Below, piece by piece: positions 4,897 through 41,754 of a stretch of DNA of 64,000 bases (the first letter of the stretch is position 1; every line of letters starts with the position of its first letter). The notes under the pieces are model-generated. The model was not told the DNA's origin and searched no databases. It worked only from the letters and a program-made list of their open reading frames with translations. The translations under genes were made by a program, and so were the position numbers. The stretch comes from Siphonodentalium dalli. Taxonomy: Eukaryota; Mollusca; Scaphopoda; Gadilida; Siphonodentaliidae. Where the stretch lies: the NCBI GenBank assembly GCA_032622095.1, contig CP136066.1, positions 108,335,319 through 108,399,318 on the forward strand. The letters are read 5' to 3'.

Positions 4897-5007
4897 GCAT
4901 ACAAGGTTCCAGGCTTCAGTGGCCAGATTGGGTTCATAACTTCAATGAGTGAGCATTTTTGTGGGACCTGTAACAGGTTGAGGATGACCGCTGATGGGAA
5001 CCTCAAG
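4897..5007 (+). CDS. MOCS1: MOCS1 internal exon, MoaA C-terminal Fe-S cluster segment
   Basis: This exon encodes 37 residues of the radical-SAM GTP 3',8-cyclase, the MoaA half of MOCS1, which turns GTP into 3',8-cH2GTP at the start of molybdenum cofactor synthesis in mitochondria. The translation runs [20 protein letters not shown] and then [17 protein letters not shown]. It carries the first two cysteines of the C-terminal CX2CX13C [4Fe-4S] cluster and the basic NRLR segment that contacts GTP in MoaA structures. A pyrimidine-rich acceptor ends in ACAG at 4893-4896, and a consensus GTGAGT donor starts at 5008. Both junctions are phase 0, and the next exon supplies the third cysteine. Earlier MoaA exons were not recognised at 1-4896. 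Confidence 0.95.
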
Positions 5008-7840: not shown

Positions 7841-8797
7841 CGAACAGTATCATACCATGACTTAGACAGAAAAAGGGACTCGATGTTGGTGGAAATTGAC
7901 CAGGATTATAAGCAAAAGTGTTGGCCTAGTTTTGATTACAAGCAACAGTTTTTTTAGCGGCAGGTTGTCAGAACCTCGTGACTAGTTATACAATTTTTAC
8001 TATCATGATCAGTGCAGTATCAGTGTGATAACCTCTAGTTAAAAAACTCCTGGAGTTATATTTCTAGCCTGGAAAACTACGCCACGCGATTACAGCACCA
8101 TGTCAAGTACAAATGTCCAAGTTTACCACCATACAATTTATTGCACCATTGGTTCCGATCAAAGTGTTTGCAAAGTGTGTGCTTCTAGTAGTGTCACATT
8201 TTTATACCCCCCGCAAGGGTATACTGGTATCAGCTCGTCCGTCCGTCTGTCCATCGTGCCGTCCATTCGTCTGTGGAAACAATTTTGTCCGGAGTTTTTC
8301 TCAGTCGTTTCATGATAATTTTCCGTGAAACTTGGCACAGACATCAACCACCATGGGAACCTGTGCACCTGTGATTATGACATCTGTCAGACTTTTTTTG
8401 GTGGAGTTATCCCCCCTTTTTCAACTTAGAAAATTTTCGCAACATGTATAATTTTGTCCGAGCTTTTATACCTACATTTTTTGGTCAATTTTTTTAAAAC
8501 TTGGAACATATATTTAGTACCATGGGAACCTGTGCATCTGCGATTATGACGTCTGTCCGACAAATTTTGGTGGAGTTATCCCCCTTTTTCGACTTAGAAT
8601 TTTTTTTGCAACATGCATAATTTTGTCCGAGCTTTTATTCCTACATTTTTGGGTAAATTTGTTTTAAACTTGGCACATATATTTAGTACCATGGGATCCT
8701 GACAGACCGCGAAAGCGTGGCCTATCGATCCTTTTGATTTTAGGAGTTTTAAGCAAGAGGTGTCAGATGTGCACCGAGCTTTTATTCCTACATTTTT

Positions 8798-9212
8798 ATA
8801 CTTCCGGCAACGAAGTTAGGGGGCGTATACTGGAATCAGCTTGTCCGTCTGTCTGTCTGTCCGTCGTCCGTCCATGGACACAAATTTGTCTGGAGATTTT
8901 CTGTCGTTTTTTGATCAATTTCTGTGAAACTTGGCACAGACATCAACCACCATGGGAACCTATGCACCTGCGATTATGACGTCTGTTGGACTTTTTTTTG
9001 TGGAGTTATTCCCTTTTTCGACTTAGAACATTTTCGCAACATGCATAATTTTGTCCGAGCTTTTATTCCTACATTTTTCGGTAATAGGTTTAAGATTAGG
9101 ATTAACTGTTATTTTATTATTTTAACTAAATGTTTACTGACATGTGAAACATCTTAGTATTTTAAAAACACAGGGGGTATCCTTAGTCCCATTGGGACAG
9201 TCACACCTCTAG
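8798..9212 (+). mobile_element. Pearl/Helitron-like element P6 nested in P5
   Basis: It starts ATACTTCCGGCAACGAAGTT and GTCCGTCTGTC, has about one core unit, and ends GGGGGTATCC, stem GTCCC-ATT-GGGAC (9186-9198), ten bases and CTAG (9209-9212). Removing it rejoins CCTACATTTTT with TTTGGTCAATTT, matching uninterrupted units elsewhere in the family (CTACATTTTTTGGTCAATTT). That fixes insertion between T residues, as in Helentrons. Confidence 0.75.
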
Positions 9213-9372
9213 TTTGGTCAATTTTTTTAAAACTTGGCACAGATATTTAGTACCATGGGAACCTGTGCACCTGCGTTTATGACGTCTGTCCGACATTGTT
9301 TGGTGGAGTTATCCCCCCTTTTCGACTTAGAATTTTTTTCGCAACATTCCAAGCTTTTATTCAGTCAATAAA

Positions 9373-9424
9373 TTTAGGATTAGAGTTAGGGGTTAGGGTT
9401 AGGGGGTTTTGGGTTAGGGTTATC
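9373..9424 (+). repeat. Short degenerate TTAGGG-like run inside P5
   Basis: A few imperfect TTAGGG units (GGGGTTAGGGTTAGGGGG and GGGTTAGGGTTA) sit where P5 and P6 core units have GGTTTAAGATTAGGATTA. This is more likely local drift of the core than an interstitial telomere. Confidence 0.4.
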
Positions 9425-9845
9425 TGTTGACATGATTTCAGTGCCAAATATATGGTAATGGCTACTTCATTCAAATAACATTTTGAATACGGGGGGTATT
9501 ACTTAGTCCCATCTGGGACAAGCTCATCACTAGTTTGGTGTCATTTTTGCATGGCTAGAGGTAATTTCCGCACAACATTAATGTACGAGGGAGAATTTGA
9601 TTGGATGCCAACAGATCTTGTCAGTATGCTAATCTTGATATGTGCACAAATTCGTTGCAACAGTGTCACATGCCTTATGATCAAGGTAATAATTGATGTA
9701 TTGAATTTTTTCACTGCTTATTGCACTACATAAATGGATCAATTATTATTAAAATATATATTCAGTTTAGTCTTGGTTTATGATATCTGTTGATCCGTTG
9801 GGAAGAAATTTTGAATGCCTTATTGATATGTTTATCCTTTTGTAG

Positions 9846-9966
9846 GTGTGTTTGTTTGGCAACTCTGAAGTGTCCCTGAGAGATGTGATGCGTGAAAGTA
9901 CATGTGATGAGGAATTACTCGAGGTGATCGGAGCTGCTGTGAAAAGAAAAAAGAAACAGCATGCAG
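9846..9966 (+). CDS. MOCS1: MOCS1 internal exon, end of MoaA domain
   Basis: This exon encodes [18 protein letters not shown] and onward to [13 protein letters not shown]. Its first cysteine completes the CX2CX13C C-terminal iron-sulfur motif begun in the preceding exon. The [13 protein letters not shown] and IGAAV-RKK-QHAG blocks are hallmark MOCS1A/MoaA sequence. The acceptor is TTTGTAG (ending 9845) and the donor GTATAT starts at 9967. The exon is 121 nt and leaves a split glycine codon (phase 1), which the next exon completes with GT. The 4.8-kb intron upstream and 2.4-kb intron downstream consist mostly of pearl-like elements and MITEs. Confidence 0.95.
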
Positions 9967-10707
9967 GTATATTAGAGAATGTAAAATGTCAGAGAGCAGT
10001 TTGAAATTTAAGGTTGCAGCACACAATTTAAGGGTGTGGAAAAGGGCTGAAAAATGAACATTATACTTCTGGGAATTATAACTGAAAGTGTAGTCTGTTG
10101 TGGAAACACAGTCTTAAAGGTTTGAATATGTTATTTAAACTGCTAACGCATGAAAAGATCGAAATATATTAATAGCGTAGATATGGGGCAGAGTGCCAAT
10201 CTTTTGTGGTTCTGATAGTGTGTAGCAAAATCAACTGGCCTATGAACTGTCATGGTAACGGCTGACTTTAGTCTTTCTGAACAATTATCTCATGATGAAT
10301 ATCTCATTATCTCAAATTAAATTACAAGTGACTTCTTTCTGACCTAAACATATCTACCATGTGATATAAGATATAGAAATCTCTCTCTTCAACACAACCG
10401 ACTTGAATCTGATTTATAAGCTGATTGATAAGATGATTGGTACCAAGGACTTCCTCAATACTGACTACAGACATTACTCAAAACAAACCTTGACACCTTC
10501 ACAATAGCATCACCTGTTTTAGTTTTATGGATGGATGACTTTGATATATCTTATCTATTTAAATAAAACCCATTGTCTGTCTGTCTGTGACTCAACCTAG
10601 AAGATGATACACCAATCAGGCTGATTGAAAGTGTTCCCCAAAGGCCATATTTACACTCATTCGCATGGCGGTGTGGGTGGGTCGAAATGACGTCGCACTG
10701 AGACCCC
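9967..10707 (+). other. MOCS1 intron 2, unique part
   Basis: AT-rich, with a short GTCTGTCTGTCTG tract near 10575; nothing else recognised. Confidence 0.5.
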
Positions 10708-10924
10708 TACAGTAATGCCCTAAGTAATCGACTCTTTAACCACAGCAGAATTATGAGTAACTTTTCAGGATTTAGTCGGAAATATGGCTTGTTGCCATTC
10801 ATCGGAAATCTGTCACTGAGAGCTTTCTGGTGAATGGCAACAAGCCATATTTCCGACTAAATCCTGAAAAGTTACCCATAATTCTGCTGTGGTTAAGGGG
10901 TCGATTATTTAGGGCATTACTGTA
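10708..10924. mobile_element. Pogo/mariner-like fold-back MITE, copy M1
   Basis: A near-perfect 217-bp palindrome runs from TACAGTAATGCCCTAA to TTAGGGCATTACTGTA. Arms of about 100 bp contain CCACAGCAGAATTATG and CGGAAATATGGCTTGTTGCC. Terminal CAGTAATGCC with TA outside suits a Tc1/mariner/pogo-type MITE with a TA target. It lies in MOCS1 intron 2. Confidence 0.75.
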
Positions 10925-11006
10925 CTTGCTTTGAAATTGTATGGGCACAACTGGCAACTCTCTATAGTTGAAAATGGGGTCAAATGGTCTTTTAGTTTGC
11001 CAGTGT

Positions 11007-11257
11007 TAACCCTTCCATGACTGGAGCTTCCTGAAATTTTGCGAAAACCCTGTGCCAATGCATTCTCTTATATATGCGAGTCTCACATATATAAGAGAAT
11101 ACATTGGCCTAACAATATTTACCTTCACCTTGTATTAAGCCAGTGCATTTTCTTATATATGCAAGGCTCCTTTTGGGAGACTCGCACATATAAGAGAATG
11201 CAATGGCACAGAATCTTTAATGCTGCACCACCACAGCTGCCATCATGAAAGGTTTAA
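11007..11257. mobile_element. piggyBac-like MITE family A, copy A2
   Basis: TTAACCCTTCCATGACTGG to CATCATGAAAGGTTTAA encloses two hairpins on CATTCTCTTATATATGCGAG. TTAA at both ends with CCCTT termini is the piggyBac signature. MOCS1 intron 2. Confidence 0.7.
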
Positions 11258-11331
11258 CCTATACATCATCATCAGTTTGATTATTTTCTAATAACTTTTG
11301 GCAATCACATGCTGTTGTTATGCAGTCTGTT

Positions 11332-11526
11332 ACAATATGTGATGCACGGTTATGATATTTTCTTACGTCCACAATATGTGATGCACGGTTATGATATTTT
11401 CTTATGTCCACAATATGTGATGGATGGTTATGATATTTTCTTATGTCCACAATATGTGATGCATGGTTATGATATGTTCTTATGTCCACAATATGTGATG
11501 CATGGTTATTATATTTTCTTACGCCA
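11332..11526 (+). repeat. 39-bp minisatellite, five units
   Basis: ACAATATGTGATGCAYGGTT and TATGATATTTTCTTAYGTCC repeat at 11332, 11371, 11410, 11449 and 11488. The 39-bp period is a multiple of three, so ORFs stay open on both strands with a 13-residue repeat. Not a gene. Confidence 0.9.
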
Positions 11527-11565
11527 ATTGTTGGTTTTGTGATAGAATAAACATATACATTTATT

Positions 11566-12342
11566 ATACCCCCCGCAACGAAGTTAGGGGGGGTATACTG
11601 GAGTCAGCTTGTCCGTCCGTCGTCCGTCCGTCCGTCCGTGGACACAAATTTGTCCGGAGTTTTTCTCAGTCGTTTTTTTATCAATTTCCGTGAAACTTGG
11701 CACAGACATCAACCACCATGGGAACCTGTGCACCTGCGATTATGAAGTTTGTCGGACTTTTTTTGGTGGAGTTATCCCCCCTATTTCGACTTAGAAAATT
11801 TTCGCAACATGTATACATTTGTCCGAGCTTTTATTCCTACATTTTTTGGTCAATTTTTTAAAAACGTGGCACAGATATTTAGTATCATGGGAACTTGTGC
11901 ACCTGCGATTATGACGTCTGTCCGACATTTTTTGGTGGAGTTATCCCCCTTTTTCGACTTAGAAACTTTTTTTGCAACATGCATAATTTTGTCCGAGCTT
12001 TTATTCCTACAATTTTCGGTCAATGTTTTTTAATCTTGGCACTGATATTTAGTACCATGGGAACCTGTGCACCTGCGATTATGACGTCTGTCCGACATAT
12101 TTTGTGTGGAGTTATTCCCCTTTATCGACGTATAATTTTTTTCGCAACATACATAATTTTGTCTAAGCTTTTATTCCTACATTTTTTGGTCAATAGGTTT
12201 AAGATTAGGATTATGGTTGTACACCTGCAATGGGAACTGTTATTTGATTATTTTAACTAAATGTTTACTGTCATGTGAAACATCTTAGTATTTTAAAAAC
12301 AGGGGGGTATCCATAGTCCCATTGGGACAGTCACACCTCTAG
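11566..12342 (+). mobile_element. Pearl/Helitron-like element P7
   Basis: A full-length member of the P5/P6 family in MOCS1 intron 2. It has ATACCCCCCGCAACGAAGTT with a complementary AGGGGGGGTATAC (hairpin), GTCCGTCCGTC at 11611-11638, about three core units, then GGGGGGTATCC, stem GTCCC-ATT-GGGAC (12316-12328) and CTAG at 12339-12342. It lies between TT on each side. It ends only about 50 bp before the MOCS1 exon at 12394. Confidence 0.75.
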
Positions 12343-12393
12343 TTTGATCTAATAATTTCACCTGACGTTTTTAAATGTGTCATTTCATTCCAG

Positions 12394-12449
12394 GTATGCT
12401 TAATCTCTCAAAGATGAAAAACAGACCTATGATTCTTATTGGTGGGTGA
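12394..12449 (+). CDS. MOCS1: MOCS1 short exon with alternative ends: Gly-Gly stop or fusion donor
   Basis: The acceptor TTCCAG ends at 12393. The exon completes the split glycine and encodes MLNLSKMKNRPMILI, the conserved tail of MOCS1A. Read straight on, it gives GGT GGG TGA, that is Gly-Gly-stop at 12441-12449, the double glycine needed by MOCS1A in animals. Two donors overlap here. GTGGGT starts at 12442 and, joined to 13007, restores the frame into MoaC (ILI-DETMAAA). GTGAGT starts at 12446 and, joined to 13007, gives GGT GGA TGA, again Gly-Gly-stop. Exon end is therefore 12441, 12445 or read-through to the stop at 12449. Which ends are used cannot be told from DNA alone. Confidence 0.9.
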
Positions 12450-12474
12450 GTTTTTATTTTCTTATCACACGTTG

Positions 12475-12712
12475 GCCTAGCATCACTAATTGCAACCTCT
12501 GGGGACCTCATTCTGCTTAGGCCTCCTCTCCTCGGGAAAGTATAAGAAATAACAAGATTTTTAATTTCTTTAGAATTAATAATTTTCTTTTTTAGGTTAG
12601 TTTCTCTGTATCCCCAAATTGGCAGATGATGAATATGGTGATGCTAGCCCACTGTGTGTCACTAAATTCACCATTTGGGACCAAATGTTCGGCACCATAT
12701 TTTGAGGCCTGT
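12475..12712. mobile_element. hAT-like MITE, copy H2, decayed
   Basis: Partial copy in MOCS1 intron 3 with CTCTGGGGACCTCATTCTGC and TCTGTATCCCCAAATTGGCA; outer ends lost. Confidence 0.5.
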
Positions 12713-12743
12713 TCCAATTCTTTCTTTTATCAGGATGCTTACC

Positions 12744-12960
12744 TACAGTAATGCTCTAAATAATCTACTCCTTAACCACAGCAGAATTATGGGTAACTTT
12801 TCAGGATTTAGTCGGAAATATGGCTTGTTGCCATTCATCGGAAAGCTCTCACTGAGAGCTTTTCAATGAATGGCAGCAAGCCATATTTTCGACTAAATCC
12901 TGAAAAATTTCCCATAATTCTGCTGTGGTTTAGGGGTTGATTATTTAGGACATATCTGTA
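12744..12960. mobile_element. Fold-back MITE, copy M2
   Basis: Same family as M1 with diverged ends (TACAGTAATGCTCTAA; right end decayed to CATATCTGTA). It lies within the 565-bp MOCS1 intron 3, ending 46 bp before the terminal exon. Confidence 0.7.
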
Positions 12961-13006
12961 TTTCTGTTTATATTAATTTTTACTTTGTTCAATGCTTCAT
13001 TTGCAG

Positions 13007-13950
13007 ATGAAACTATGGCAGCCGCCTATAGAAGAAGTATAAACGATAACTATATAGTCAGTACGTATCCATTATATAATCAGACAATCAGCAAACCAGT
13101 TCAATCTATCAGCCGACATCAGAGCCGATGCTTCTCAACCTCATTGGTCCATCTTCGCCAGAATCAAAGTTCAAATGAAGGTACTCCAACAGATGGTGAC
13201 GAGAATTCAGATGCCCGGCGCAGAAAACTTAGACAGCATCTGGAAGATGATATGGTTGAACGATTTGAAAAAGAAATGATGGCGACAAATGAAGATGCAG
13301 AACACAGAATTAGTGAAATTGACCTGAATTCTGAATTGAATCGGCAACAAATGAAGTATTGGGAGAGCGATTTTCATAAGATTGGTCGCCGTGACAACAG
13401 TGGAATATTTCCTGATGAGCTTAGGAAGAATGATGAATTTATTTTTAGTAACTCGGATAATTCTTTCGAGGATCATACTAAACTCACGCACACTGATGAC
13501 AGTGGGAAGGCTTCCATGGTTGATGTCGGCAGAAAGAAAATTACTGAGAGAAAGGCAGTTGCTTCAGGAAGAGTAATTTTGGGCGAGGCAGCATTCCGGC
13601 TGCTAAAGGAGAATAAACTGAAGAAGGGAGATGTGTTGGCTGTATCGCAGTTAGCAGGAATTATGGGAGCCAAAAAAACAAGCGACTTAATTCCGCTTTG
13701 TCACAACATACCCTTGTCACATGCAGCTGTATCGTTCAAGCTCAGTGATGTTGACTACACAGTCGATATCGAAGCTTCTGTTCGCTGCTCCGGTAAGACA
13801 GGTGTCGAGATGGAAGCACTGAGTGCAGTGAGCATTGCCTCGTTAACAATTTACGATATGTGCAAGGCTGTTAGCAAGGACATTGTCATCAGTGATATAA
13901 AACTCAGGTATAAGACTGGCGGCAAAAGCAAGGATTATCAAAAAAAATAA
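13007..13950 (+). CDS. MOCS1: MOCS1 terminal exon, linker plus complete MoaC domain
   Basis: The acceptor TTTGCAG ends at 13006 and the frame stays open to TAA at 13948-13950. The first 150 or so residues are a poorly conserved linker. It includes an arginine/serine-rich stretch (RRSINDNY to SRHQSRCFSTSLVHLRQ) resembling a mitochondrial presequence. The MoaC domain (cyclic pyranopterin monophosphate synthase, 3',8-cH2GTP to cPMP) runs from about LTHTDDSGKASMVDVGRK to the end. Catalytic-region motifs are intact: LIPLCHNIPLSH (histidine), GVEMEAL (glutamates) and YDMCKAVSKD (Asp and Lys). When the upstream message ends in Gly-Gly-stop, an in-frame ATG at 13015 could start a separate MOCS1B protein. 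No clear AATAAA was found close to the stop. Confidence 0.96.
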
Positions 13951-14023
13951 TTTTACATTCCAACTTTGTTTTAGAATTGTTATTATATTTGATATTGGAA
14001 TATTTAATGTAAAGTGTGATCAA

Positions 14024-14442
14024 TCCTTGAAATAGTGTACCTGTCATTTGCAGAATGAGGTCCCCAGAGGGTGAATTTAGTGACACTCCTGCACTATGGG
14101 CTAGCATCACTAAATTCACCCTCTGGGGACCTCAGTCTGCTTGAGTCTCATTTTCTGGAAAGGATCTATAGTCTCAAATTAACATTGTTTTTAGTTACCC
14201 TTTCCCTTCTGTTCAATTTCTATATCCCCAAATTTGCAGAAGATAAAATGCATAATTGAGGTGATTAATAGGTGAACATCACCAACTTCAACTGGGGAAC
14301 TTCAATCTGATCCTAGTTCTCCCATAGCAGAATGAGCTCCCCAGAGGGTGACTTTGGTGATGCTAGCCAGCCATGCGGGGGTACCGTCACTAAATTCACC
14401 CTCTGGGGACCTCATTCCGCAAATGACAGACACACTCAAGTC
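14024..14442. mobile_element. hAT-like MITE, copy H3
   Basis: Full layout, two GAGGTCCCCAGAGGGTGA hairpins around CCCAAATTTGCAGAAGATAA. It begins about 75 bp after the MOCS1 stop codon, so it may be transcribed in the 3' UTR. Confidence 0.6.
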
Positions 14443-14890
14443 TTTCAAATTCCCAGCCTAAACTAATTGTCTCTGTGAAGAAATTTAAAACCAGATCTCC
14501 CTTAAAGGCCCATTTAATTTTTGAGTCACTGATTATTTTGTTTATAGTGCCTTGATATACGGTTTTAATAACAATTTATGACATAAAATATGATTAAAAT
14601 ACTATAATTCATCACCATTTGGAACGTCTGTGTCTCAGAAGGTGTCCATAGAGTAATAGTAAATTGCTGAAATCATAGAAACATTTCCCCCGTTTCGCTC
14701 CCAGAATACAAATTCAAACTAAGATATAGTTATTCCCCTTCCATTGAAAATAATAGACTTCAGGACAGTCAAGCACAGAAAACATGTCGGTACCTCAACA
14801 AAAACAACATGTTCACACCGGATAAGTTGACGTGGTACATAATATGGCATATATTTTATATAATGTGACCTATGATTCAATCCTATTTTT
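14443..14890. other. Intergenic, nothing recognised
   Basis: Resembles 29975-30400 in places: ATTCCCCTTCCATTGA, GAAAACATGTCGGTACCT and CCGGATAAGTTGA recur there. So an old dispersed repeat follows both H3 and H4. Confidence 0.45.
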
Positions 14891-15437
14891 ATGTTTACCC
14901 ATACCATAGTATGGTAAACATAGTGTCGTTGCCCGGATTGACCACTCGTCGTTAGTCCGTCCGTCCGTCCGTCTGTCTGTCTGTCTGTCTGTAGACACTT
15001 TACGCATGGTACGATAACTGAAATATTTTCTATCTGATCGGAACCAAATTTTGTATATGAATTTCTCAGCACCAAATACAGATCGAGTTCGAATATGGGT
15101 TTGATCCGAGTTTTTTTTACGGAGTTATGGCCCTTTTTCAACTTAGAATTTATGCATGCTGCCATAAGTCAAAAAGAAATTATCTGACCATAACCAAATT
15201 TGGTATGTGAGTTGCTCAACCCAAAATACATATCGAGTTCGAATATGGGTTTGATTCAATATTTTTTAATGGAGTTATGGCCCTTTGACATAGAATTCAT
15301 GAATGCTTCGATAAATCAAAAAAATTTCAACTGATAGGAACCAAATTTTGTATGTGAGTTTCTCAACTCAAAATACAGATCGAGTTCGAATATGGGTTTG
15401 ATCCGGTACTTTTTAATGGAGTTATGGCCCTTTGATT
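14891..15437 (+). mobile_element. Pearl-like element P8 (ACCATAGTATGGT hairpin family)
   Basis: It begins with hairpin TTTACCCATACCATAGTATG / GTAAACATA, then TTGCCCGGATTGACCACTCG, a TCCG tract (14955-14992), then three core units with GAGTTCGAATATGGGTTTGA and GGAGTTATGGCCCTTT about 170-180 bp apart. The 3' end is not defined. Confidence 0.6.
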
Positions 15438-25238: not shown

Positions 25239-25821
25239 GTTAAGCCTTTCCTTACTAAATACTCATTGATAAGTAGTTCCCTTAGGAAATGTTTAGATAA
25301 TCAAGTTCGGCCATAGGTCATTTGTTCAACTTGTTATCTGGACATTTCCCCCATCAATGATTAGGAATCCTTCTGCAGTTTTATGCTGTATACAGTAATG
25401 CCCTAAATAATCGACTCCTTAACCACAGCAGAATTATTTTTCAGGATTTGGTCGGAAATATGGCTTGTTGCCATTAAAAAAATGTCTGAGAGCTTTCCGA
25501 TGAATGGCAACAAGCCATATTTCCGACTAAATCCTGAAAAATTACCCATAATTCTGCTGTGGTTAAGGAGTCAATTATTTAGGGCATTACTGTATACAGC
25601 ATAAAACTGTAGAAGGATTCCTAATCATTGATGGGGGAAATGTCCAGATAACAAGTTGAACAAATGGCCTATGGCCGAACTTGATTATCTAAACATTTAG
25701 GGCATTACTGTAGTTCCCTTAGGAAATGTTCAGATAATCAAGTTCGGCCATAGGCCATTTGTTCAACTTGTTATCTGTACATTTCCCCCCATCAATGATT
25801 AAGAATCCTTCTGCAGTGTTA
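25239..25821. repeat. Rearranged family B cluster: direct, inverted and direct arms
   Basis: A B arm (TTAAGCCTTTCCTTACTAAA to CTGCAGTTTTATGCTGTA, 25239-25390) is followed by M4. Then comes an inverted copy of the arm (25595-25699), a stray M-family end (GGGCATTACTGTA, 25700-25712), and a third copy in direct orientation (25713-25821) broken by the Harbinger element. The B right remnant TGCTGTATAACCCTTCC resumes at 26834. Confidence 0.65.
25391..25594. mobile_element. Fold-back MITE, copy M4, at the centre of an inverted B pair
   Basis: A full palindrome flanked immediately by inverted copies of a family B arm (25283-25390 and 25595-25699). It therefore occupies the middle of a larger palindrome, with TA on each side. 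Confidence 0.75.
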
Positions 25822-39259: not shown

Positions 39260-41285
39260 TTAGAGAGACAATTTCCTCTGCCTTTCACCATCGCGGAAGT
39301 TTTTGTCGAACCTCTGATACATTTCACCTGAAATCTCACCCGTAAGAAGCTTTTGTAATAGCGGACGTTTATCACTATCATCAACAGTTTTCTGGACAGG
39401 ACTAGAGTTTTCCTTTCTTGAAGAATAAAGATCCAAAGGATAACGTGAGTCCACATATCCTCGAAGAACCTTTTCTAATTCTGACATGTTTTTACCACCA
39501 GAATTTTTCGAACATTTCAGACTAGTTTGTGCCGGTTTCATAGCTTTCTGTTTTTTCTGATCCTCTGCCTGAGCATTCAACAGAATCATTCTAAGTTTAC
39601 TCTCGAAAAAATCGGTGCTAGATGAAACTGTCGGTGAAGTTGGCATAGAAACCGATGATGACTTAGATTTATTTGGTTGAGCTTGAACATCATCACTATT
39701 CTTTAGAGGAACACTAGTATTAGATTCGCATAATACAGTTGATGAGTCAGGCAGAATAGCGTCATCTTCCAATGAGTAATCATTACTCAGAAGACAATTA
39801 TCACTATCGTTAGACGACCAATTTTGTTGAGTCATTCCTGAAATGAGCGAACAAACCTGCTCATCTCCGAGATTATCACAATATTGAAGTGCAAAATCCA
39901 AAAAGTCCTCCGACGATGACTGGTGGTCCAATGTCGCTGAATTTTCTGCCTCCTGATATGGCATTGTGGGAAAAGCATGACCTGATGAAACTGTACCCGA
40001 AGAACCTGAGCATGATTTGTGAATAGGTTTGGAAATGACATCTGTTTTTTCGGCGAAATGTGTTTCGAGATTGCCTTTCCACATCGGATCAGTTTCTGAT
40101 AGCAGATGTTCAAGATCACTGAAAGTACTACTATCTGGTACAACTTTCGTCGTCATAGAAGACTTTGTCGCTCTTGATTTCTCAATTTTCTTGCTCAACT
40201 GTTCCAGAATGTTTGTACGCAAGAAAGACGGCAGCATTTGAGACTCGCTATCCACCTTATCACTTAGAAGGGAGCGCAGTAATGTTCTTTGACGTTTTTT
40301 ATGTAGATCAAAATCTCCAGTTTCACAATGCTTCCGTTTTGTTGAATCGGGTTCAGTTTTAAAAATATGACTTCTTTGATTCACTTGTTTGCGATCTTTT
40401 TCGCAGTTTGGAGTCACTATGGTATCTGTGTTACAACAATGAGCACTGTTAGCAGAATTATTATTATTGTTGTTGTTTACTAACTCATTAAAATCACAGT
40501 AACTTGGCAGCTGGCCATTAAACATGGAACTATTCAGACATTGTGAGCCAGGAGAGATTGAGGAATTATTAACATTCACAGTTGATGTTTGGTTGTAAGC
40601 GTTTTGGTTGAAAGTTGAAGGGTCTGGAATGTATAATGGTTGATCATCTCGCTTTCTTGTGTCATTATCCAGATTTTTCAAAAAATCATAGAGAAAATCC
40701 AAGTTATTCAGATCAGTAAAATCAGGTTGCTCTATCGAACTTGAAAACATTTCCAGATCTGAATTATTGAATGATGATGAATCTAGAGGTAAATTATCAT
40801 TGAAAGTATTAAGTGAAGGACACGTGTTGTGCAGCATGGAATCGGGACTAGTTTCGTTCTTAATGCATGTCAGAATGTTAGACACACCATCCGAGTCAAT
40901 AATCATGGGATCACATTGGCTTTCACAAATTCTTGACACGTCGCTAACGACTTCACTAGGCTGGTTACTAATGAAGTCTGGCTGTTCGTGAGAATCATAA
41001 TATTCATGCTCCATCGTAGAGATGTCTGAAGGGCTGCCCCTTGGTGAGTAGTTCGAATTAGCACCATTGCTGCTACCTAGAGGGCTGCCGGACATAGAGT
41101 TTCCACTGTGGTAACCGCTGCTTAGTCCATCTGTGTCTGCTTCCTCGGACATATCTGATGTGCTACTAGCACCGCCAGGTGATGAGCCAGCATAATCATT
41201 AAAATCCATGCTCCCAGTCATGGTGGTTACCACAGGACCTTGCATCGTTGATTGATTGCCTTGGACTTCGTGACTATTGTCCTCA
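39260..41285 (-). CDS. Large exon of an unidentified LXXLL-motif nuclear protein
   Basis: The ORF has 661 residues from ATG at 41245, and the frame is open a further 40 nt to a good acceptor (TTCTTTCCAG, ending at 41286), so coding may start in an upstream exon. Numbering from that Met, the protein is rich in Ser, Asn and Asp with an Asn run near 257-263. LXXLL motifs lie at 323-327 (LRSLL), 378-382 (LEHLL) and 630-634 (LQKLL). A bipartite basic signal spans 303-320 (KRK...KKRQR). SUMO-type motifs are IKNE at 128 and FKTE at 295. These are features of nuclear-receptor coregulators or receptor A/B regions, but no DNA-binding or other domain is visible and the family was not recognised. The TAG stop could be bypassed by a weak donor, GTGAAA, after residue Gly653. 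Confidence 0.8.
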
Positions 41286-41754
41286 CTGGAAAGAATGAAG
41301 AAAAATTAATTTAACAAAATTATAACATTATAATGAGAGGCCGATCACGATCATCTGATGGTTAAACCATACGACTACAACAATCGAAACCATCCAGCGA
41401 GCGTACTAATTACCTCCACTCAAAGACCAATATTTCAGCGTTATACAGTCAGCTCCAAGCCTGCGATGTTTATATAATAGAGAATTTGTTATATTTTAAA
41501 TATTTTGAGGTGTTGACAGATACATTGGTTCAGCTAGTAAAGCTACCCCAATAACATAGTCTGGTTTTCAAACAATTCGCATCATTAAAAATTATATGCA
41601 GGAGGGGAAAAAAATAATGAAAGTGTCCATTTAGTATAGAAAGGTTTAACACACGAGTGGTCCAAAGCATGCAGTCACCATCACAGTGTGAACGACATCA
41701 TAACCTCGTCACAGTGAAACTCAGCATTCTGCCAGCGAGTGTCGATCTCATAAC
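41286..41754. other. Intron upstream of the LXXLL exon
   Basis: Begins (minus strand) with the TTCTTTCCAG acceptor. The GGCCGATCACGATC motif at 41340 echoes 16985. No upstream exon identified. Confidence 0.45.

Follow-up and report, generated by a model that had tools for sequence, protein, structure and literature searches.

The MOCS1 gene in the present window (by which we mean the whole 64-kb stretch of DNA analysed) carries, at the end of a 48-nt exon, two overlapping donor sites that lie 4 nt apart, and the sequence permits splicing round the stop codon of MOCS1A. We propose, with a probability of about two in three for the explanation taken as a whole, that competition between these donors switches this animal gene between a MOCS1A protein and a MOCS1A-MOCS1B fusion. 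Should both donors be in use, the required Gly-Gly end, the stop codon and a pair of overlapping U1 sites would all be contained in eleven bases, the constraints of protein and splicing could be weighed directly against each other, and a frameshifting 4-nt tandem donor would supply two products that are both needed, instead of noise or decay. The features discussed are collected in Table 1.

Table 1. Features of the MOCS1 locus (positions are those of the window).
Feature	Position	Strand	Remarks
MOCS1A exon, Mob_synth_C region	4897..5007	+	donor 5008 GTGAGT
MOCS1A exon ending ...KKKQHA	9846..9966	+	donor 9967 GTATAT; ends phase 1
48-nt exon GMLNLSKMKNRPMILI(G)	12394..12441	+	phase 1-1; alternative 3' end 12445; skippable in frame
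Upstream donor GTGGGT, would give the fusion MOCS1AB	12442..12447	+	U1 duplex -9.2 kcal/mol
Downstream donor GTGAGT, would give ...IGG-stop MOCS1A	12446..12451	+	U1 duplex -10.4 kcal/mol
TGA stop following Gly-Gly, retained-intron form	12447..12449	+	
Intron	12446..13006 (from 12442 in the fusion form)	+	frame analysis of junctions
Last coding exon: linker, MTS-like segment, whole MoaC domain (MOCS1B)	13007..13950	+	
TGA stop read across the 12445/13007 junction, within the last coding exon	13008..13010	+	
ATG in MoaC frame, possible reinitiation codon	13015..13017	+	AAACTATGG context; A at -3, G at +4
RCFSTS, presequence-cleavage-like motif	13126..13143	+	starts 40 residues past the junction codon
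MoaC domain PF01967	13516..13923	+	E 3.1e-53

The MOCS1 gene and its proposed choice point

The 3' part of the gene sits on the + strand of the window (genome of 2.2 Gb), and exon pieces found upstream (L006, L007) join with the window exons into a single open frame of nine exons, the first exon not included. In this joined frame MOCS1A without its first exon has 352 residues and the fusion 664. The MOCS1A part matches the MoaA profile TIGR02666 completely (profile positions 1-336, E 6.7e-117, score 390 bits, cut-off 284), as well as Radical_SAM and Mob_synth_C (Pfam), and is thus an intact radical-SAM MoaA, with an Ile-Gly-Gly end through donor 12446 or through intron retention. MoaC follows downstream on the same strand, where the last coding exon matches TIGR00581 (E 1.9e-55) and contains PF01967 in complete form. 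Profile searches of the genome, which can miss matches, found no second MOCS1 copy, since every match reported (one PF01967, three PF06463 and four TIGR02666) falls in the present gene. When relatives of the MoaC exon were sought in viral contigs, five stretches fitted a pattern and none was confirmed. The last coding exon is given here up to the final base of its stop codon, 13950, and a single AATAAA/ATTAAA, at 14593, is present in 13951-14600; an Rfam scan of 9000-15000 gave nothing at the gathering threshold. Elsewhere in the window, the minus strand of 39260-41305 holds an open stop-to-stop frame of 681 aa, Ser-/Asn-rich by eye and with no Pfam match.

The 48-nt exon ends in ATTG|GTGGGTGAGT, the acceptor AG occupies 13005-13006 and the sequence of the choice-point junction is GGTGGGTGAGT, so that the two donors 4 nt apart described in the earlier note are indeed present. 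Translation also bears out the frames proposed there, with the upstream donor staying in the MoaC frame and the downstream donor, or no splicing, leading to Ile-Gly-Gly and a stop. Joining 12441 to 13007 gives ...KNRPMILI-DETMAAAYRR..., a frame that runs on across MoaC and ends with the stop codon 13948-13950, joining 12445 to 13007 gives ...KNRPMILIGG (last Gly as GG+A) followed at once by TGA, and the unspliced RNA encodes an identical ...MILIGG peptide (GGT GGG TGA). With the 4-nt spacing, therefore, the intron interrupts the second Gly codon, and the next exon supplies the stop; an out-of-frame ATG (13007-13009) overlaps this stop (as ATGA) in the 12445/13007 mRNA. Skipping of the 48-nt exon, with 9966 joined to 13007, gives ...KKKQHA-DETMAAAYRR... 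and keeps the MoaC frame, because the exon is of phase 1-1. The view that the whole choice is packed into ten bases thus went too far, for an in-frame fusion also results when the exon is skipped. Nevertheless, the reading of the locus as a switch between MOCS1 A and A-B forms is well supported by the frames, by the intact gene, by the bacterial Gly-Gly ends and by the apparent position of the human fusion donor.

Donor strength was assessed by duplex energies with the U1 5' end and by a donor frequency matrix. Among all GT/GC sites in 12331-13006, predicted U1 pairing places 12446 first and 12442 second, and the matrix, applied to the GT sites of the same stretch, places 12446 first (8.47) and 12442 fourth (6.04); GTGAGT is the stronger donor by both measures, as the earlier note had judged from its appearance. 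The U1 energies of the pair (Table 1) are close, the matrix scores less so. Both energies lie inside the range of seven other MOCS1 donors that were scored (-5.3 to -12.2), and among the 3536 GT of the window's + strand only 0.37% pair with U1 as well as or better than 12442 and 0.17% as well as or better than 12446. The motif GTNNGTRAGT is over-represented in the window and is not unique to the 48-nt exon: it occurs eight times against 2.77 expected (none of 100 shuffles reaches eight), four of the occurrences being one repeated string, GTATGTGAGT. In 20,000 simulated sequences with GGT-GGN-stop fixed, and with stop-codon weights that are an assumption, a GT at +4 was found in 18% and U1 pairing at least equal to that of 12446 in 0.86%.

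Proposed products and their fate

In the mechanism that we propose, U1 would compete between the overlapping donors. Splicing at 12446 would draw on the last coding exon to complete the final Gly codon and to provide the stop, and would give an active MOCS1A (GTP 3',8-cyclase) ending in Ile-Gly-Gly. A stop in the last exon, with no intron in the 3' UTR, spares an mRNA from nonsense-mediated decay under the exon-junction rule, and the 12446-spliced mRNA would be expected to escape decay because its stop lies in the last coding exon, with no known intron beyond. Splicing at 12442, or skipping of the 48-nt exon, would remove Gly-Gly and stop and produce the MOCS1A-MOCS1B fusion, with an A part that would be inactive, having no Gly-Gly end, and with the delivery of MOCS1B (MoaC) to mitochondria as its presumed role; MOCS1B would then be freed by a cut, possibly close to RCFSTS. 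It may also be that one of the two donors is silent, its product being supplied by skipping or retention.

The need for a Gly-Gly end was examined in bacterial MoaA. Of 230 confirmed relatives the 80 best were taken, and each frame was read to its stop: 79 of the 80 loci end in Gly-Gly-stop and the other one (L061) runs off its contig. Together with the functional importance of the MoaA double glycine in eubacteria and eukaryotes (PMC3602415, in the passage cited), these ends indicate that a route to a Gly-Gly end is needed. The A part of the cattle fusion, which has no Gly-Gly, is described as inactive (PMC3034695, in the passage cited), and the A part of the present fusion, which lacks it too, is probably inactive. 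In a pattern-based, capped list of prokaryote MoaA relatives the top twelve (L008-L019) bear Bacteroidetes-type labels, one of them Balneolaceae, and the top identity of the animal MOCS1A to prokaryote MoaA among the matches listed is 56%; the labels of these relatives may offer a clue to where the animal gene came from.

The linker of the fusion starts with DETMAAAYRRSINDNY. RCFSTS is the sole match in the partial fusion to R-x-[FYL]-[SA]-[SATG], which we take to be a presequence-cleavage-like pattern, and at least one such motif appears in the first 70 residues of 2.7% of 10,000 shuffled linkers. The net charge of the MTS-like segment does not stand out: out of 625 windows taken along the fusion protein, 69 are at least as positive. 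Human MOCS1AB is reported to be imported by way of a targeting motif within the protein and to be cut afterwards at 432, which is 48 residues past 384 (PMC9607355), compared with the 40 residues between junction codon and RCFSTS here; in the version of the human work given in PMC7232280, the cut exposes the internal signal prior to import, so that the cited passages of the two papers disagree on the order of cut and import, a disagreement that weighs against our reading. The Neurospora fusion releases its B part after it has been imported (PMC7232280).

The earlier note had also suggested that the ATG at 13015 would allow reinitiation. In its fullest form this would make the 12445/13007 mRNA bicistronic, with a restart 5 nt past the Gly-Gly stop, one RNA giving both mitochondrial enzymes and the tandem donors only tuning their ratio, which we consider improbable. 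The suggestion stands insofar as the ATG is in the MoaC frame and in a favourable context, and its product would begin with a basic, RCFSTS-containing presequence; against it, the human bicistronic mRNA is described as giving functional protein from the first frame only (PMC9607355). The same source describes trace MOCS1B through reinitiation in one human patient, and separate NIT-7B in Neurospora showed no mitochondrial localisation in the cited passage of PMC7232280.

Comparison with human and other known systems

Human MOCS1A has 385 residues, ending in Gly384-Gly385, the human fusion occurs as isoforms of 636 and of 620 residues, and an exon-9-skipped splice type exists. Human variants comprise c.1102+1, c.1165+6 (formerly IVS9+6) and c.1150G>A (p.Glu384Lys), and the renumbering of c.1523 to c.1508 and of c.1777 to c.1762 corresponds to a shift of 15 nt (PMC9313850). 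By arithmetic on this variant numbering, combined with Gly at residue 384 of MOCS1A (the paper itself, in the passages cited, does not state the layout), we infer that the human exon starts at c.1103 and ends at c.1150 in the fusion form (48 nt, phase 1-1) and at c.1165 in the Gly-Gly form. Human codon 384 would then be split as G|AR, coding for Glu, where the split codon here is G|AT, coding for Asp. The exon at 12394-12441, likewise of 48 nt and phase 1-1, and with the donor for the fusion placed in the penultimate Gly codon, would be the counterpart of c.1103-1150, and the human fusion donor would occupy the same codon position as 12442. The Gly-Gly donor would lie at +15 in human and lies at +4 here, where no GT/GC is present at +15 (12457; 12456-12458 is ATT) and the nearest strong downstream donor is the one at +4. 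In human, Gly-Gly and stop would be wholly inside the exon, in contrast to the split Gly codon and the stop in the next exon found here. The table of PMC9313850 assigns c.1150G>A to MOCS1A and c.1165+6T>C to MOCS1AB, the reverse of what this layout leads one to expect, and it mixes numberings (c.1643 with Ala543; c.1338 with Arg447, against S442 in PMC9607355), the discrepancies again amounting to 15 nt or 5 codons.

The earlier note had regarded the arrangement as preserved in an invertebrate. This seems to hold for the position of the upstream donor but not for the spacing, because the human Gly-Gly donor appears to lie 15 nt, not 4, downstream, and the compact form here differs accordingly from the human layout. 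If this human layout is true, the 48-nt exon and the split codon that human would share suggest that the upstream position predates the split of vertebrates and the present lineage and that the downstream donor has moved.

Splicing between A and AB forms is itself already known, the 4-nt spacing being a variant of it. PMC3034695 refers to Gray and Nicholls 2000 for splice types in human, mouse, cattle and invertebrates, and in the vertebrate genes (human, mouse and cattle; types I and II) the choice between MOCS1A and MOCS1AB is also made at the exon preceding the MoaC exon (PMC9607355; PMC3034695). As here, MoaC is held by one last exon, preceded by a linker with a targeting and cleavage region; the junction residue is Asp here and Glu384 in human. 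Drosophila Mocs1 produces a short Mocs1A and a long Mocs1A-Mocs1B by alternative splicing (PMC5817353), as proposed for the present gene. Neurospora crassa nit-7 resembles it in its intron-coded Gly-Gly and stop, in the formation of the fusion by splicing and in having two nearby donors (removed stretches 1460-1696 and 1469-1696), and differs in that these are 9 nt apart instead of 4, that the Gly-Gly form is the unspliced RNA and that the second splice variant is not essential (PMC7232280). We did not meet the 4-nt spacing in the passages of MOCS1 literature searched, a search to which Gray and Nicholls 2000 and Mayr 2020 did not belong, and either of these may already describe it in some species; a literature search found no paper joining MOCS1, molluscs and alternative splicing.

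Alternative explanations and neighbouring repeats

Complementary repeats that flank an exon can promote its skipping, and copies of a palindromic repeat lie on both sides of the 48-nt exon, with a mutual complementarity of 89% over 217 nt. An explanation in which 12446 is the sole donor used at the exon's end, the fusion arises when the 48-nt exon is skipped, and the upstream GT is simply part of the penultimate Gly codon would draw on these repeats, on the MoaC frame left intact by skipping and on the higher rank of 12446 in both strength measures. We consider it rather unlikely, as 12442 has the second-best U1 pairing of the region and stands at what appears to be the human fusion-donor codon, and as each palindrome, its arms being 1 nt apart, can fold on itself and is common in the window. 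The mode known from fungi, in which the Gly-Gly form would come mostly from unspliced intron and 12442 would be an ordinary donor, is quite unlikely here: retention does yield Gly-Gly-stop, and nit-7 relies on it, unspliced RNA rising on demand (PMC7232280), but the intron has 565 nt and a predicted fold that includes a long hairpin, a stronger donor is placed 4 nt downstream, and the human reports, in the cited passages of PMC9607355, are of alternative splicing in exon 9, not of retention.

Mere splicing noise, with one dominant donor and the other giving a functionless trace product, has to be weighed against the human record of GYNNGY tandem 5' splice sites, to which the present pair is alike in its two GY donors, their distance of 4 nt and the resulting frameshift (PMC4267661). 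In human, 796 of 122,198 such donors (0.65%) were seen alternatively spliced, which was judged to be primarily noise (PMC4267661), and for this reason the tandem motif is by itself a poor predictor. However, each of the two products has its match among the enzyme forms of known MOCS1 genes, pairing with U1 is good at either site, and regulated pairs are reported to resemble each other (PMC4267661); we consider noise a very improbable explanation. Regulated GYNNGY pairs mostly create stops thought to trigger decay (PMC4267661), in contrast to the present stop, which lies in the last coding exon and would be where an enzyme normally ends.

The palindromic repeat is 217 nt long, and the copies flanking the exon, with arms 1 nt apart, occupy 10708-10924 and 12744-12960 in the introns on either side; we regard them as a minor lead for exon skipping. 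The window contains six further full or nearly full copies, with 81-91% identity in the better orientation, and fragments; copies outside the flanking pair lie near 25391, 29388, 38034, 49479 and 61740; in the genome, 80 matches were listed, both strands of the same places included (40 of 2099 candidates scored). The fold of 12394-13060 has a z of -24 (20 shuffles), mainly from this repeat, and the intron hairpin was rejected as a regulator, being the same many-copied palindrome. An RNA hairpin over the donors was likewise rejected as special: 12415-12460 (46 nt), picked after a fold had been seen, has a z of -2.86 (2 of 200 shuffles as good), but an 87-nt stretch over the donors has a z of -0.51 (59 of 200 as good), and among 1000 synonymous recodings of the exon 770 fold at least as well and 245 close off the donors to the same degree or more. 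Two tandem arrays lie between the repeat copy at 10708-10924 and the 48-nt exon, one at 11332-11521 (period 39, about 4.9 copies, 95% matches) and one at 11693-12202 (period 170, 3 copies, 85% matches), the latter with like sequence, by eye, at about 8400-9400.
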